Shown: positions 9,587 to 20,321 of the stretch, in pieces
How positions within the stretch are numbered: the first letter of the stretch is position 1
Layout of the letters: every line of letters starts with the position of its first letter
NCBI GenBank assembly: GCA_003009755.1
Contig: PXUB01000008.1
Span: 1-22,809, forward strand
Origin: Thermoplasmatales archaeon SW_10_69_26
Lineage (GTDB): Archaea; Thermoplasmatota; SW-10-69-26
DNA: 22,809 nt
Reading direction: 5' to 3'
Notes under the pieces: model-generated
The model's database searches: none
Told to the model about the DNA's origin: nothing
The model's input: the letters and a program-made list of their open reading frames with translations, nothing else
Position numbers and translations under genes: made by a program

Positions 9587-9700
9587 GGTTCCACTCCCAG
9601 CCCCCCATGCGTGACCGTGACAAAGACGTTGCGGGTGCCGGGATCGGGAGGCCGGCCAGCCCCCACGGGTCACCGATCGTCGGGCGGCGGAGGCCAGCCG

Positions 9701-9870
9701 CGCGCTGTAAGGATAAGAAATGGGGGGGACCACCAAGTACGCGAAGGGACGCCAGGGCACAAGGGGGAGCAGCTGCCGTGACAGAGCCGCCCGGCGGCGA
9801 GTCACTAGGCCCTTCGTGGCCTTGGCGATCCTTCGTGTCCTTCGCGGCCCCTGCTTAACGAGACAGCCCG
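9701..9870 (+). mobile_element. MITE-like palindromic element, copy A, with 9-bp target duplication
   Basis: Full-length copy (170 bp) of a three-copy family. The ends read CGCGCTGT (9701-9708) and ACAGCCCG (9863-9870), an imperfect inverted repeat that continues inward (GATAAG against GTTAAG) and then along arms of about 40 bp (9726-9765 against 9810-9849). The centre holds a nested palindrome, GTGAC (9778-9782) with GTCAC (9801-9805), enclosing CCGCC/GGCGG. Immediately outside, GGCCAGCCG occurs both at 9692-9700 and at 9871-9879, a perfect 9-bp direct repeat as left by transposition. No ORF is inside. TATA-like GGATAAG (9711-9717) lies near the left end. It sits upstream of the PINA gene, whose own TATA box is outside the element. 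Confidence 0.8.
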
Positions 9871-9892
9871 GGCCAGCCGGGCCCGCCCTTTC

Positions 9893-9898
9893 AAATAA
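9893..9898 (+). promoter_or_regulatory. TATA box of the PINA gene
   Basis: AAATAA, centred about 25 nt upstream of the GTG at 9920. This spacing is why I chose the GTG rather than the ATG at 9910, which is in another frame. A purine-rich GGAGGGGG (9899-9906) could also act in ribosome binding if transcription starts further upstream. Confidence 0.55.
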
Positions 9899-9919: not shown

Positions 9920-11860
9920 GTGCGCCGCATCCTGGTCCCCGACGCCAGCGTCCTCGTGTCCGGTCGCTTGACCCACCTCATCGAGGAGGGCGACGTCGAG
10001 GAGGCGGATATCGTCGTGCCCGAGGCCGTGCTCGCCCAGCTCGAGCACCGTGCCGTCGAGGGCCGCGAGTCCGGCGTCACCGGCATCGACGAGGTCTCCA
10101 CGCTGCAGGACCTGGCCCGCGACGACCGGGAGATCGACGTCCACTTCACCGGCGAGCGTCCCCACCCCCGCGATCTCGAGCAGGAGAACGAGACCGAGAT
10201 CCGCGGCCGGATCCGCGAGGCCGCCAGCCAGGAGGGCGGTCAGCTGGTCACCAGCGACCGCGTGCAGGCCCACGTCTCCCGAGCCCGCGGCCTCAACGTC
10301 TGGTACCTGCATCCGTGGGCCGAGGAGGACGAGCCGGAGACCGAGGAGCTCGAGCTGTTCCGCTTCTTCGACGACGACGTGATGAGCGTCCACCTCAAGG
10401 CCGGCACCGCGCCCGTCGTCAAGCGCGGCACACCGGGCAGCATGCGGCTCGAGAAGCTGGCCGGGGGCCCGCTCGAGCACGCCGAACTGTCCCCGATCGC
10501 TCGCGAGATCATCGAGGGGGCCCGCCGCGATCCCGACGCCTTCGTCGAAATCGAACGCCCCGGCGCGACCGTGTGCCAGCTGGGCGCCACGCGCGTCACG
10601 ATCGGTCGCCCGCCCTTCTCCGAGGGCCTGGAGATCACGGCCACGCGCCCGGTCGCCAAGCTGGGCCTGGAAGCCTACGATCTGTCGGGCGAGATCCTCG
10701 AGCGCACGATCGACGGCTCGCGCGGCATCTTCATCTCCGGCAGCCCCGGGTCGGGCAAGTCCACGTTCGCCCAGGCGTTGGCCGACGAGCTGCACGGCCA
10801 GGACACCGTCGTCAAGACGATGGAGGCGCCTCGGGACCTGCAGGTCGACGAGGACATCACCCAGTACGCGCCGCTGGAGGGCTCGATGGAGCTCACCAGC
10901 GACGTCCTGTTGCTCGTGCGGCCCGACTACGTGATCTACGACGAGGTCCGCAAGACCGAGGACTTCTCGATCTTCGCCGACATGCGGCTGGCCGGCGTCG
11001 GCCTCGTCGGCGTCACGCACGCCAACCGCGCCATCGACGCCGTCCAACGCCTGCTGGGCCGCGTCGAGCTGGGCATGATCCCCCAGGTCGTCGACACCGT
11101 CATCCACATCGACCGCGGCCAGATCGACCACATCCTCGAGCTCGAGCTCACCGTCAAGGTGCCCGAGGGCATGCAGGAGGCCGACCTGGCTCGCCCGGTC
11201 GTCACCGTCAGCGACCACGGGACCGGTCGGGCGCTGCACGAGATCTACACGTACGGCGAGCAGACCGTCGTCATGCCGATCCAGGAGCCCGGCCAAGGCC
11301 CCGGCGGGCAGGATTCCCGCCGCGACGAGCTCGCCGAGAGCCAGCTGGCCTACAAGCTGCGCCGCCACATCGACGGCAACTTCGAGGTCGACGTCACCGG
11401 GTCCAACAGCGCAACCGTGTACGTCTCGCAGTCCCAGATCGCCAGCGTGATCGGCTCCGGCGGCCGCAACGTGCAGCGCCTGGAGGACCAGCTCGGCGTC
11501 GACCTGGACATCCGCACCTTCGAGGACAAGCGCGAGGAGGAGAGATCGCGGTCCTCGGGGGCATCGACGAGCTCGACCAGCTCGGGCCCTCACGGTGGCG
11601 GCGGTGGCGGATCGACGCCGGACGCCAGCGAGCGCTACCAGCAGCTCTCGCCGGAGGTCCGCCGCACCGAGCAGAACGTCGTCCTCGTCCTCAGCCCCGA
11701 GATGGCCGGCGAGCACGGCGCCGTCTACGTCGGCGACGAGCGCCTGTTCGCGGCCACGATCGGCCGCAACGGCGAGATCCGCGTCCGCCGCGGCTCGGCC
11801 GAGGGCCAACGCCTGCAACAGGCGTTCCGCGACGGGCCACCGGTCACCGTGCGGGTGTGA
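9920..11860 (+). CDS. pina: PINA-type ATPase: PIN domain, secretion-type RecA ATPase, KH domain
   Basis: 646 residues from the GTG at 9920. The N-terminal PIN nuclease-like domain (about 1-130) has D8 (LVPDAS), E35 (VVPEAV) and D113 (VTSDR), the usual acidic set. A VirB11/PilT-like ATPase core follows, with Walker A GSPGSGKST (274-282), Walker B YVIYDE (337-342) and sensor-like VGVTHANR (363-370). A KH domain at about 498-533 has its loop at IGSGGRNV (511-518), followed by a Ser/Gly-rich linker (541-568) and a small C-terminal domain. This layout matches the archaeal PINA proteins, for which Holliday-junction branch migration has been reported in Sulfolobus. The gene stands alone between a MITE copy and a hairpin-rich convergent region. 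Confidence 0.9.
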   Translation: MRRILVPDASVLVSGRLTHLIEEGDVEEADIVVPEAVLAQLEHRAVEGRESGVTGIDEVSTLQDLARDDREIDVHFTGERPHPRDLEQENETEIRGRIREAASQEGGQLVTSDRVQAHVSRARGLNVWYLHPWAEEDEPETEELELFRFFDDDVMSVHLKAGTAPVVKRGTPGSMRLEKLAGGPLEHAELSPIAREIIEGARRDPDAFVEIERPGATVCQLGATRVTIGRPPFSEGLEITATRPVAKLGLEAYDLSGEILERTIDGSRGIFISGSPGSGKSTFAQALADELHGQDTVVKTMEAPRDLQVDEDITQYAPLEGSMELTSDVLLLVRPDYVIYDEVRKTEDFSIFADMRLAGVGLVGVTHANRAIDAVQRLLGRVELGMIPQVVDTVIHIDRGQIDHILELELTVKVPEGMQEADLARPVVTVSDHGTGRALHEIYTYGEQTVVMPIQEPGQGPGGQDSRRDELAESQLAYKLRRHIDGNFEVDVTGSNSATVYVSQSQIASVIGSGGRNVQRLEDQLGVDLDIRTFEDKREEERSRSSGASTSSTSSGPHGGGGGGSTPDASERYQQLSPEVRRTEQNVVLVLSPEMAGEHGAVYVGDERLFAATIGRNGEIRVRRGSAEGQRLQQAFRDGPPVTVRV

Positions 11861-12261: not shown

Positions 12262-14853
12262 TCAGAGGCTATCCATGGGGTCCGATCCCCCCCCCTCCCC
12301 CCAGAAGACGAGGACCGCCCCGTCGATCCGGTCGTCGTCGTCGGTCCGGTAGGGCTTGATGCGCAACCGGTAGCGGTTCCCCTCGTCGTCGGTGAGGCTG
12401 GTCCGGTTCACCGACAGCGTGTCGAGGACCTCGCGGATCTCGGCCTGCAGGTCCACGTCGAAGGGGATGTTGAGGTCGGCCAGCGGGCGGCCGACGTCGG
12501 CCGCGATCAGGCCCAGAAGCTCGGCCGCCTGCGGCGTGAACCGCCGGATGTCGAGCTCCGCGCCCAGCATGACGATCGGGAGACCGACGCCCTCGAGCAG
12601 GTTGACGAGGTCGGCGTTCACCTGCTTGATCTCCTCGTTGCGCTGCCGCAGCTCCTCGTTGGCGCGGTTGAGCTCCTCGTTGGTGGACTGCAGCTCCTCC
12701 TTCGTCGTCTCCAGCTCCTCGTTGGTGGACTGCAGCTCCTCGTTCGTGGAGAGAGCCTCCTCGTGCGCGGACCGCAGCTCCTCGTTCGTCGCCTCGTAGT
12801 CCTCGATCACGGACTGCAGGTAGCCGCGCGTGGCCTCCAGCTCCTCCTCGAGCTCCTGCACCCGCCCGGCGTCCTCGTCGGGCCCGGGCTCGAAGAGATC
12901 CCCGAGCAGCCCGCCGACGCGGTCGAACAGCCTTCCCTCGGTCCGCTGGGGGTCCTCGAAGGCGACCATCAGGTGCCCGGCTTGCGGGTCGCCCGGCGGC
13001 ACGGGGGCGACCTGGAGGCCGACCTCGCGGCGCTCGTCGCCGCGACGGAAGCGGACGGGCGCTCCGCGGACGGGCCCACCGGTCTCGCGGATCTCGTCCA
13101 CGGCCGAACGGATCGCCACGGCCAGACCGCGGGGCGCGATCCGCATCAGGTCCAGGCTGGCCTGGCCCTCCTCGGGATCCAGGTAGTCGCTCACGTCGCC
13201 GCGGAACTCGGTGACGGTGAGGTCCTCGTCGAGGACGATCGCCGGCGGGGCGTACAGGTCCAGCGCGACCTGGTCGACCTCGCGGCTCACGTCCTCCGGT
13301 TCCACGGGTCCACGATCTCCTCCCACGTCCGTCCGGCTCCGCGAGACCGTGCCCAGGCCCGTGGGTGCCACCGGGTGGCGGGCCTGGCTGGCTCGCTTGG
13401 GGCGGTAGATGTTGTGATCGTGGTCCAAGGGCTCGAAGAGCTTCTGGAAGCGGTGGACGCTCTCCGAGGAGCCGAGGACGAGGGCGCCCTCCGCGTCGAG
13501 CGCGTAGTGCAGCGCCCGCGCGACCTCCTCCTGGTGGTCGCGGTCGAGGTAGATGAGCATGTTGCGACAGCTGACGATGTCGATCTCCGAGAAGGGGGGA
13601 TCGTTGAGCAGGTCGTGGCGGGCGAACACGCAGGCGTCGCGCAACCGCTCCCGCACGCGGTAGGCGCCATCTTCCTCCACGAAGTGGCGCTCCAGGCGCT
13701 CGTCGCCGAGGTTGTCGGCGATCGCGAGCGGGTAGCGGGCCTCGCGCGCGATCTCGATCACGCGCTCGCTCACGTCGGTCCCGAACAGCTGTATCTCGCG
13801 GTCGAGGCCGCGCTCGGCGAGGTGCTCGTCGACGACCATCGCCAGCGTGTACACCTCCTCGCCGGTCGCACAGCCCGGCACCCAGATCCGGATCGGGTCC
13901 TCGTCCGTGTCGTCGACGAGCTCGGGGAGGACCTCGTCTTCGAGGGTCTGGAAGACCTCCGGGTCGCGGAGGAACTCGGTGACGTGGATCAGGCTCTCGT
14001 CGTGCAGGCGCCAGATCTCGTCGGCGTCCTCCTCCAAGCGATCGACGTAGTTGGCGATGCCGACCGTCCGCGTGGCGACCATGCGCCGACGGATGCGGCG
14101 GACCAGCGTCGAGCGCCGGTAGCGGGAGAAGTCCACGCCGGTCCGCTCGCGCACGCGGTCGAAGATCTCGGCAAGCGCGTCGTCTGGCAACGCGTCCGCG
14201 TCCCGGCGGCTGGCCCACCGGTCCCGGACGCGCTGGAGCTCGTCCGCGATCGCGGCGGGGGCCAGCACGTGGTCGACGTAGCCAGCCTCGATCGCGCTGC
14301 GCGGCATGCTCTCGTGCTTGGCGGTCTCGGGGTCCTGCACGATCGCGATGCCGCCGCGCTGCTGGATGGCTTGCAGGCCGCTGGCGCCGTCGGCGAGGCC
14401 GCCCGACAGGACCACACCGACGGCCTGGGCCCGGTAGGTGGCCGACAGGGACCGGAAGAAGCGATCGATCGCGTAGGAGATGGCATCCTCGTCCGCGACG
14501 ACGGGTGCCAGGCGATCATCCTCGACGCCGGGGACCTGACCGGATGGGGCGACGTGGACGACGTTCTCCTCGATCGCCATCCCCTCCTCGATCTCGACGA
14601 CGTCCATCTCGGTGGCGGCCGCCAACAGGTCGGTGAGCTGGCTCTCCTCTCCCGGCTCGCCGTGCGTGACGACGACGATCGCCATGCCCGGTTCAGCCGG
14701 CAGCTCGCCGAGCAGGGGCGAGAGGGCTCCGAGCCCGCCGGCCGAGGCCCCGACACCGACCACGGGGAACCCGTCGCGATCGGCGGATCCGAGAGCTCGC
14801 GCGGCGGGCCGGTCGGCGGCGGTGTCGGTCGGTTCCTCGCGGTCGTCGTGCAT
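12262..14853 (-). CDS. CheB-CheR-PAS fusion protein without kinase domain
   Basis: 863 residues from the ATG at 14853. Residues about 28-200 are a CheB methylesterase domain with its triad in place: GASAGG (S37), VVTHGEPG (H64) and LADGASGL (D155). Residues about 222-485 are a CheR methyltransferase domain, with SAM-binding [14 protein letters not shown] (326-339) and SCRNMLIYL (428-436). A PAS-like region spans about 525-635. A coiled coil follows at about 664-750 with [19 protein letters not shown]-type heptads, then a second PAS at about 755-855 and a short tail. In bacteria this fusion usually continues into a histidine kinase; here the protein ends after the PAS, while a separate PAS kinase lies 1.9 kb away. 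There is no receiver domain in front of CheB, so the esterase is not controlled by ordinary CheB phosphorylation. The Bat-type regulator ends 41 bp upstream on the same strand. Confidence 0.88.
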
Positions 14854-15593: not shown

Positions 15594-15660
15594 CGCAGCG
15601 TTCCCCTTACAGCCCTCCCCATCGGCACCGCGACGGTTAGGTTTTGGCATGCCCCGGGCG

Positions 15661-15829
15661 CGGGCTGTGAGTATAAGAAACGGGGGGACCACCAAGTACG
15701 CGAAGGGACGCCAGGGGCACAAAGGAGAGCAGCTGCCGTGACAAAGCCGCCCGGCGGCGAGTCACAGGGCCTTCGTGGCCTTGGCGATCCCTCGTATCCT
15801 TCGCGGCCCCTGCTTAACGAGACAGCCCG
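15661..15829 (+). mobile_element. MITE-like palindromic element, copy B, in a divergent promoter region
   Basis: Full-length copy (169 bp) of the same family and orientation as copy A, with perfect 8-bp terminal inverted repeats: CGGGCTGT (15661-15668) and ACAGCCCG (15822-15829). The flanks are CCCCGGGCG (15652-15660) and CCCCCGGCG (15830-15838), a 9-bp direct repeat with one mismatch, again fitting a target duplication. It carries the clearest TATA-like stretch of the three copies (GTATAAG, 15671-15677). It lies in the 297-bp space between the divergent Bat gene (start 15593) and the wHTH-FHA gene (start 15891), so its insertion has altered the shared upstream region. Confidence 0.8.
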
Positions 15830-15890
15830 CCCCCGGCGTTGAACCTCCTAGGACGAGGAACCATGCCCCCTTCCCGGAGTTGGTATACCT

Positions 15891-18805: not shown

Positions 18806-18955
18806 CGCGCTGTAGGGATAAGAAACGGGGGGGGACCATCAAGTACGCGAGGGGACGCCAGGGCACAACGGGGAGCAGCTGCCGTGACAACGCCGCCCGG
18901 CGGCGAGTCACAGGCCCTTCGTGGCCTTGGCGATCCTTCGTGTCCTTCGCAGTCC
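18806..18955 (+). mobile_element. MITE-like palindromic element, copy C, truncated at the right end
   Basis: Same family and orientation as copies A and B. It begins CGCGCTGT (18806-18813) with TATA-like GGATAAG (18815-18821), keeps the arms and the nested GTGAC/GTCAC palindrome, but stops matching after CCTTCGCAGTCC near 18955. The terminal CTGCTTAACGAGACAGCCCG of the other copies is absent, and methyltransferase coding sequence begins there. No target duplication can be scored because the right boundary is lost. Confidence 0.78.
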
Positions 18956-19666
18956 TACGAGCTGCTGGCCCACCACTACGACGCCATCCACCGATCCAAA
19001 ACCTACCGGCGCGAGGCCGACCGGGTGCTGGCCCACCTCGACCACCAGCTCGAGGGTCCCGGCGACCAGCTGCTGGGCGTGGCCTGCGGATCGGGGCGCC
19101 ACATCGCCGAGTTCACCCACCGCTACGCGTGCCTGGGCGTCGACGCCAACGCCGGCATGCTGCGCCTGGCCCGCGACCGGGTGCCCCAGGCGCGGTTCGT
19201 GCAGGCCGACATGCGCGAGCTGTGCCTCGCCAAGCGGTTCGACGCGCTCACGTGCCTGTTCGGCTCGATCGGCTACCTGCGGACGTGGGCCAACCTCGCG
19301 CAGGCCGTCGAGCGCTTCGCCGACCACCTCCGCGAGGGCGGCGCCTTCGCGATCGAGAGCTGGATCCCGCCCGAGCGTCTGCGCAAGCCCCTGCGCAAGG
19401 TCCGTTCCTACGAGGACGGCGACCGCGCCATCGCCCGCGTCGGGGTCGCCTCGCCGCCTGTGGATGGCTGCAGCGAGCTCACGCTCGAGTGGCTGATCGC
19501 CGAGGAGGGCGAGGAGATCAGCCGGCACACCGAGCACCAGCGGTTGGGCGTGTTCGGCGTCGACGAGACGCTGGATCTGCTCGCCGAGCACGGCCTCGAA
19601 GCGACCGTCGACGAGCAGGGCCTCACCGAGGACCGCGTCCTGTTCGTCGGGAACCGCGTGGGATAG
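18884..19666 (+). CDS. SAM-dependent methyltransferase, dTDP-aminosugar N-methyltransferase-like
   Basis: 260 residues if started at the GTG at 18884, which lies inside MITE copy C; the family sequence itself begins about residue 23 (SYELLAHHYDAIHRSKTY). No ATG or GTG lies between the element and that point, so the original start seems lost and the element may supply the new one. The sequence resembles TylM1/DesVI-type N,N-dimethyltransferases: YDAIHRSKTYRREADRVL, motif I LLGVACGSGRHIAEF, GVDANAGMLRLAR, QADMRELCLAKRFDALTCLF, GSIGYLRTW and ESWIPPERL. Those enzymes methylate nucleotide-linked aminosugars. No sugar genes are nearby, so the substrate here is uncertain. The core domain looks intact to its natural C-terminus. 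Confidence 0.78.
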   Translation: MTTPPGGESQALRGLGDPSCPSQSYELLAHHYDAIHRSKTYRREADRVLAHLDHQLEGPGDQLLGVACGSGRHIAEFTHRYACLGVDANAGMLRLARDRVPQARFVQADMRELCLAKRFDALTCLFGSIGYLRTWANLAQAVERFADHLREGGAFAIESWIPPERLRKPLRKVRSYEDGDRAIARVGVASPPVDGCSELTLEWLIAEEGEEISRHTEHQRLGVFGVDETLDLLAEHGLEATVDEQGLTEDRVLFVGNRVG

Positions 19667-19768
19667 GGAGCACGAGGGACACCAAGGTGAAGGGCACGAA
19701 GGGACAAGCTGGGGAGGTCAGGGTGGGGACCACGAGGGACACCAAGGGGGCTAAGGGCACGAAGGACC
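19664..19768 (+). repeat. Tandem direct repeat, two units of about 60 bp
   Basis: CACGAGGGACACCAAGG occurs at 19671-19687 and again at 19731-19747, each followed by an AAGGGCACGAAGG-like stretch. The repeat starts at the stop codon of the methyltransferase gene. Its vocabulary (CACGAAGG, GGACACCAAGG) is close to one arm of the MITE family, so it may be a decayed or arm-only derivative, but no terminal inverted repeats are present. Confidence 0.65.
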
Positions 19769-19804
19769 GAGCAGGGAAGGCGGCAGGCAACGCCGGGCCG
19801 TCCG

Positions 19805-19951
19805 ACGGAGTGGGAAGGGCCCGTGGAAGATCAAAGGATCAAACGCTTGATGCCGTTTCGGAGGTGGGGGTTCGCCGACGTTCAGCAGAAAGCCAAGACG
19901 CTTCCCCGTGGCCTCCAGATACGTGAGGGTCTGAGCCGTGTGAGCGGACGC
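19805..19951 (-). pseudogene. Fragment of a GxxExxY-family gene
   Basis: On the minus strand, residues 45-93 of a short open frame read SAHTAQTLTYLEATGKRLGF and LLNVGEPPPPKRHQAF. This looks like the C-terminal end of GxxExxY proteins (pattern AQ-L-YL-ATG-LGLLINFG). The N-terminal part, including the GxxExxY motif itself, is not present upstream. It is therefore a truncated remnant, in line with the degraded character of this region. Identification rests on one short conserved block. Confidence 0.5.
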
Positions 19952-19983
19952 GAAGGGATTTGGAATCCCCGCTCCGGAGAACC

Positions 19984-20013
19984 CGGGGGGTAGGGCGTCT
20001 GAGCCCACCCCCG
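19984..20013. other. GC-rich hairpin in the degraded region
   Basis: CGGGGGG (19984-19990) with CCCCCG (20008-20013) and the inner GGGC/GCCC form an imperfect hairpin. Just overlapping, GGCGTCT (19993-19999) and AGACGCC (20026-20032) form a second, alternative inverted repeat. No function assigned. Confidence 0.35.
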
Positions 20014-20040
20014 CTCCCAATCGCAAGACGCCGTCCGCCG

Positions 20041-20072
20041 CCCCCCGCTCGGGGGGCTCTCCTTTTCTTTCT
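20041..20072 (+). terminator. C6-GCTC-G6 hairpin followed by a T-rich run
   Basis: CCCCCC (20041-20046), loop GCTC, GGGGGG (20051-20056), then CTCTCCTTTTCTTTCT. This looks like an intrinsic terminator on the plus strand. The downstream TTTCTATTAC could also serve as a weak TATA for the small ORFs that follow. Confidence 0.45.
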
Positions 20073-20321
20073 ATTACGCTCACCCAGCGTCAGCTGCGTC
20101 GATTTCAGCAGGACCTTGTCAAAGCCGCGAGCGATCCCCAGCTGATCGAGCTGGGCATCCCACCGTCCTGGCCGCTGGCCCTCGCCATGCACCTTGAGGC
20201 GCTGGCCCCGCGGCTGGCGCTTCCACCGCCGGGACGCCTCCCGTCACCCCTGGCGATGCGATCTCTCGCTCAAGTGCGTACGCTGCGCGCACGTCTGGTG
20301 TCACGGTCTCGCCGTGACTGA
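20073..20321 (+). pseudogene. Possible 5' half of a frameshifted small gene
   Basis: The frame from 20073 reads LTQRQLRRFQQDLVKAASDP and on to IPPSWPLALAMHLEALAP, which has protein-like composition and GC-biased third positions up to about 20195. After that the GC bias moves to the frame of the next feature, while this frame continues without bias to a stop at 20321. No ATG or GTG start is visible before 20187. I read it as either the first part of one gene broken by a frameshift near 20195-20215 or a degraded fragment. No family recognised. Confidence 0.35.

Follow-up and report, generated by a model that had tools for sequence, protein, structure and literature searches.

A MITE-type transposable element family with 9-bp target duplications located at a fixed distance upstream of putative promoters in a Thermoplasmatales archaeon

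Introduction

The window analysed here, a stretch of 22,809 bp from Thermoplasmatales archaeon SW_10_69_26, is contig C8 of a 2.82-Mb draft genome consisting of 49 contigs. Gene content and promoter type were the basis for assigning it to the Archaea in this analysis. The window contains three copies of a palindromic repeat of about 170 bp at positions 9701-9870 (copy A), 15661-15829 (copy B), and 18806-18955 (copy C). A preliminary description of this DNA had located the repeats at these positions, which were confirmed, and had regarded them as a non-autonomous element that is moved by a transposase in trans and generates 9-bp target duplications. The locus raises the question of whether the repeats were dispersed by transposition and, if so, what determines the sites at which they reside.

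Structure and copy number of the repeat family

Copy A is a full-length element of 170 bp on the plus strand and is bounded by imperfect 19-bp terminal inverted repeats, CGCGCTGTAAGGATAAGAA at 9701-9719 on the plus strand and, read inward, CGGGCTGTCTCGTTAAGCA at 9852-9870 on the minus strand, with 14 of 19 positions of the left repeat matching the reverse complement of the right one. The left arm (9729-9766, plus strand) carries the C-R-C-N-R-A-G-like units CACCAAG, CGCGAAG, CGCCAGG, and CACAAGG at a spacing of about 9 nt. It is followed by a central hairpin at 9778-9805 (GTGAC...GCCGCCCGGCGGC...GTCAC) and by the right arm (9808-9849), an inverted array with the minus-strand units CGCGAAG, CACGAAG, CGCCAAG, and CACGAAG. 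Copy B is also full length (169 bp, plus strand), and copy C, on the plus strand as well, lacks the right end. Copy C adjoins a methyltransferase-like reading frame (18922-19659) that starts at the truncated end of the repeat without an obvious start codon of its own, and the 5' end of this gene may have been altered.

BLAST searches of the genome retrieved at least 41 matches with 90-100% identity, which were mostly of full length with 90-95% identity, and 40 of 68 candidates were scored. With additional searches for both element ends, at least 46 copies were identified, truncated ones included. The multicopy element is 165-172 bp long, contains no transposase gene, and has retained its end sequences in about 40 copies. 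Most truncated copies have lost only the right terminal repeat (the last 15-25 bp) and end near position 145-155; these include L064, L075, L077, and L079 as well as copy C. Pairwise identity ranges from 89 to 98% (mean 93.8%, maximum 97.7%), divergence from the consensus averages 3.8%, and there are no identical copies in the aligned set.

The three copies in the window had been considered strikingly dense. In a simulation with 46 random points, three fell within 9.3 kb in 34% of the runs, so that three copies in this window are no significant accumulation (P = 0.34).

Target-site duplications and the origin of the family

For the analysis of insertion sites, every copy was aligned to copy A and its flanks were read from this alignment. 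Among the 37 full copies with both flanks, a 9-bp duplication is perfect in 20 and has one mismatch in nine (29/37), and no copy has a perfect flanking match longer than 9 bp. When flanks were re-paired between copies as a control, 8/9 identical positions were reached in 2.3%, a rate that is explained by self-pairings. In the window, copy A is flanked by the perfect repeat GGCCAGCCG (9692-9700 and 9871-9879) and copy B by CCCCGGGCG (15652-15660) and CCCCCGGCG (15830-15838), which match at 8/9 positions; both pairs had been correctly described before. In the copies L014, L016, and L026, the repeat is present with a small shift or indel. The copies L006 (C29:70402) and L071 (C38:104292) carry reciprocally exchanged duplications, with GCCGGGAGG on the left and CCGGTGGGC on the right in the former and the reverse arrangement in the latter. 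Such an exchange is expected either from a crossover between two copies or from an assembly misjoin, and under both explanations it supports the 9-bp duplications.

Thus, duplications accompany most other copies across the genome, and the earlier core reading of a non-autonomous element moved in trans is supported. The family is of the MITE type and, like other prokaryotic MITEs (PMC10969869), it is short, gene-less, multicopy, and intergenic and has terminal inverted repeats and target duplications.

A fold-back of copies over almost their full length, which had also been proposed, is real but imperfect. The folding energy is about -84 kcal/mol as RNA, and z = -1.8 was obtained for single-stranded DNA. 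Strong folding and an intergenic location would also be compatible with regulatory or structural palindromes of the REP or terminator-like kind that were dispersed by recombination or gene conversion. This explanation is extremely improbable, as most copies have precise ends and 9-bp target duplications and as no compensatory changes on both sides of a base pair were found across the copies, so that there is no sign of selection on the fold itself. The lack of compensatory changes also leaves an RNA role of the fold unsupported, and an Rfam search of the window gave no match. The family therefore originated by transposition and not as a dispersed regulatory palindrome. The idea of an active or recently active family was not borne out: because the copies have diverged and nine of the 29 duplications already contain a mismatch, movement is placed in the past, and signs of very recent movement were not seen.

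A different kind of repeat is located at 12674-12846 on the minus strand of the window, where 21-bp repeats within a CheB/CheR/PAS gene apparently encode a heptad-type repeat.

Insertion phased to putative promoters

Genes were called with a simple codon-usage model trained on the clear genes of the window. Since gene calls can err, the flanks of the copies were also searched for a promoter-like motif independently of any gene call. In 68 flanks, each 80 bp long, 29 matches to the motif AANNTTTWW at ≥6/7 positions were obtained. The distance between the insertion edge and the start of the motif is 14-18 bp for all 29, and none occurs elsewhere in flank positions 1-70. At a threshold of ≥5/7, 34 of 38 full copies fit on one flank, compared to 0-3 copies at six other offsets. 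Columns 16 and 17 (A/A), which lie outside the columns used for picking the side, contain an A in 19/30 and 22/30 cases, respectively. Genes lacking a MITE have this motif most often at -33/-34 relative to the start codon, and 12 of their 18 matches fall in the interval from -38 to -29. This is the spacing expected for BRE/TATA elements in leaderless archaeal genes, and the promoters considered here are assigned from motif and spacing.

The distance to the start codon is concentrated at 47-55 bp. It amounts to 46-55 bp in 19 of 30 copies, while uniform insertion into the same gaps would place 3.2 ± 1.7 copies in this range (maximum 11 in 5000 trials). A preference of this kind could in principle result from random or merely intergenic insertion if selection had left only the copies just upstream of promoters. 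The genome is compact, the disruption of a gene or core promoter would be deleterious, and an intergenic bias is found in some other insertion sequences (PMC9208149). However, avoidance alone should scatter the copies, whereas even in long gaps (416/52, 126/49, and 138/54 bp) about 50 bp separate a copy from one start codon, and the motif is limited to a band of five positions. A model that forbids only insertion at less than 45 bp from the start predicts 11.8 copies in the observed range (P = 0.001) and reproduced the alignment of the AT box in 0/5000 trials. Selection alone is accordingly a very unlikely cause of the pattern.

The shared orientation of the three copies in the window, which had seemed special, has no counterpart in the genome. 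Among 44 copies with gene calls, 22 are located between divergent genes, 18 between tandem genes, two between convergent genes, and one within a gene. The promoter motif is faced only by the left end of the element in 19 copies, only by the right end in 13, and by both ends in two. Copy B obeys the phasing on its left side, where the BRE/TATA-like motif AAAACCTAA (5/7; 15637-15645, minus strand) starts 16 bp outward and faces a minus-strand HTH_10 gene. Copy A lies 50 bp upstream of the start codon (9920) of a plus-strand gene for an ATPase with T2SSE/AAA and KH domains (9920-11860); its TATA-like box TTTCAAATAA (9889-9898, plus strand) at 19-28 bp from the edge is a weaker match (4/7). Insertion of this MITE thus occurs at a fixed distance upstream of putative archaeal BRE/TATA promoters, without a preference for orientation.

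Together with the link to gene-associated arrays described below, this phasing goes beyond the preliminary description. No report of a promoter-phased archaeal transposon was found in the open-access literature, and phased promoter targeting is not mentioned in the passages on archaea and on promoters of a review on MITEs (PMC10969869).

Search for the mobilizing transposase and related elements

A full-length insertion sequence or another parent element with the ends of the MITE was not found in the draft assembly, in which all unpaired ends derive from truncated or relic copies. Insertion sequences are often lost from draft bins, and the parent element may be located outside the bin or may have been lost. 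Transposases of the IS256 type (PF00872) are absent from the genome. An IS4/IS5-type transposase (PF01609, DDE_Tnp_1) was rejected as mover of the MITE, since its only gene, at C32:94339, is frameshifted and associated with the unrelated inverted repeat GGGCTYGCACATAAA; the corresponding insertion sequence (L160, G000:C32:94339-94833) is present as a single copy.

The MITE family was not detected in 59 other genomes, and a genome from the same taxonomic family as the archaeon (75% complete) contains no copy and yielded no empty site. Three weak matches outside the own genome were chance similarities in unrelated sequence. Searches of plasmids, phages, and IMG/VR gave no match either.

Several known systems share aspects of the behaviour of the MITE. 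The bacterial Mutator-like groups p-MULT 3/4 have direct repeats of 8-9 bp, inverted repeats of 18-39 bp, and a conserved terminal cytosine; TnGBS and ISLre2 elements insert 15-17 bp upstream of the -35 boxes of sigma-A promoters, and members of ISKra4 insert in both orientations (PMC3942029, Guerillot et al.). The 9-bp repeats of the MITE fall within the range of p-MULT 3/4 (ISLre2, ISKra4), and both the MITE and TnGBS/ISLre2/ISKra4 insert at a constant distance from a downstream promoter, a putative archaeal one in the case of the MITE. The ends of the MITE are imperfect over about 19 bp and have a C as outermost base on the 5' strand, while the cytosine in PMC3942029 is given without strand. 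In contrast to TnGBS, ISLre2, and ISKra4, which encode a transposase and target bacterial sigma-A promoters, the MITE is gene-less and targets an archaeal BRE/TATA-like box. Thus, in its mode of insertion the MITE works like an ISKra4/ISLre2 element, a likeness of behaviour in a family for which no transposase was found. The mostly archaeal, Mutator-like ISH6 (p-MULT 2) has also been discussed in connection with promoters and duplicates the AT-rich motif AANATNTT (PMC3942029). Unlike ISH6, the MITE duplicates 9 bp that are GC-rich and located beside the AT-rich box instead of within it.

Inverted arrays bracketing GxxExxY genes

The inner part of the MITE resembles sequences found at a group of genes encoding GxxExxY proteins (TIGR04256/PF13366, PDDEXK_3), to our knowledge a widespread family without an assigned function. 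Inverted C-R-C-N-R-A-G arrays with a unit spacing of 8-11 nt bracket these genes not only in the own genome but also in a second member of its class and in 17 genomes from other phyla. Of 53 loci, 34 have unit pairs in forward sense on the upstream side and 29 have them in reverse sense on the downstream side; the opposite senses account for 11 loci each and distant flanks for 0-1. Among 198 Bacteroidota genomes, a GxxExxY gene is present in 17/17 genomes with three-unit arrays compared to 99/198 overall (hypergeometric P = 3.6e-6, not corrected for kinship). Gene-less palindromes, dispersed in the genomes, make up most of the arrays in GxxExxY genomes. Bracketing arrays or palindromes were observed at window positions 19690-20083 and at the loci L031, L032, L058-L062, L083-L099, and L130-L159.

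The own genome encodes GxxExxY genes, and the window contains a remnant of the C-terminal part of one on the minus strand (19751-20083; PF13366, E = 5.8e-4). A genome-search match covers 19871-19951 of the remnant, and its C-terminal peptide also occurs in a copy at C20:41065. The remnant adjoins an array of CACGAAGG-like units (19690-19775, plus strand), one stretch of which is 69% identical to the left arm of the MITE; the CACGAAGG tandem pattern itself has no exact match in the genome. In the arms of the MITE, a 7-mer (CACCAAG, CGCGAAG, CGCCAAG, CACGAAG) recurs about every 9 nt, the two arms forming arrays in inverted orientation. With a unit model derived from bacterial GxxExxY arms, both arms score in the matching sense, the left arm with a chain score of 29.8 (shuffle maximum 24.0, 0/2000) and the right arm with 36.9 (shuffle maximum 20.7, 0/2000). 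These sequence comparisons lead to the conclusion that the core of the MITE is the same kind of palindrome as the arrays bracketing GxxExxY genes.

The resemblance suggests a comparison with REP/REPIN-RAYT systems, in which, as in the case of GxxExxY, a gene is bracketed by inverted short repeats and solo palindromes are dispersed in the same genome. RAYT is a tyrosine (HUH) transposase, whereas GxxExxY is a PD-(D/E)XK-type protein with putative mobility. On this model, the nuclease-like GxxExxY protein itself would mobilize the element, and the MITE would be a gene-less GxxExxY element; the unit arrays common to both, the dispersed gene-less palindromes, the association in Bacteroidota, and the GxxExxY genes and remnant in the own genome all point in this direction. 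Mobilization by GxxExxY is nevertheless unlikely. Visual inspection of GxxExxY loci revealed no 9-bp duplications and no CGSGCTGT ends, and no MITE copy with a GxxExxY gene inside CGSGCTGT ends was seen. Unlike the bracketing arrays, the MITE contains no gene and is delimited by outer ends of its own with 9-bp duplications, and we know of no transposase activity in the GxxExxY family. In a Bacteroidales genome (G070; L117, L120, L123), unit palindromes are located within another kind of MITE, whose ends are of the GAGTCCACTCCGAAAAGTC type and whose flanks show apparent 6-bp duplications (AAGATT, AATATT); this suggests that such palindromes are passengers of ordinary transposons.

A broader and still rather unlikely reading is that GxxExxY and the C-R-C-N-R-A-G arrays constitute an undescribed mobile system across domains, comparable to RAYT/REP except that its protein is of the PD-(D/E)XK type; the archaeal MITE would then be a promoter-directed, gene-less derivative of this system. 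GxxExxY is not among the known defence genes in PADLOC, a sequence search found no solved relative, and no paper on GxxExxY arrays was found in the open-access literature.

Proposed mechanism and significance

The repeats probably represent a non-autonomous MITE family derived from an insertion sequence and inserted in trans at a fixed place upstream of archaeal promoters. A transposase acting in trans would recognize the CGSGCTGTNNNGNTAAG-type ends and cut the target with a 9-bp stagger, resulting in a 9-bp duplication that starts at the insertion edge. The element would be joined at a position from which the BRE/TATA-like box is about 16 bp and the start codon about 50 bp away, and either of its ends could face the promoter. 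Based on these distances, the duplication would cover positions from about -48 to about -40 relative to the start of a leaderless transcript. The inner C-R-C-N-R-A-G palindrome would be a GxxExxY-type palindrome captured between the transposon ends, which is the simplest reading of its resemblance to the bracketing arrays.

Fixed-distance integration upstream of promoters is a feature of the yeast retrotransposons Ty1, Ty3, and Tf1. It is also already known for bacterial Mutator-like elements (PMC3942029). If the proposed mechanism is correct, the archaeal BRE/TATA case would extend this strategy to the third domain, and whether the minimal TBP/TFB complex serves as the beacon could then be tested simply in vitro. 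For the organism, it would mean that a single element was placed beside dozens of promoters without breaking them, creating a uniform set of upstream sequences. In addition, the link to the inverted arrays provides a first handle on the GxxExxY protein family.
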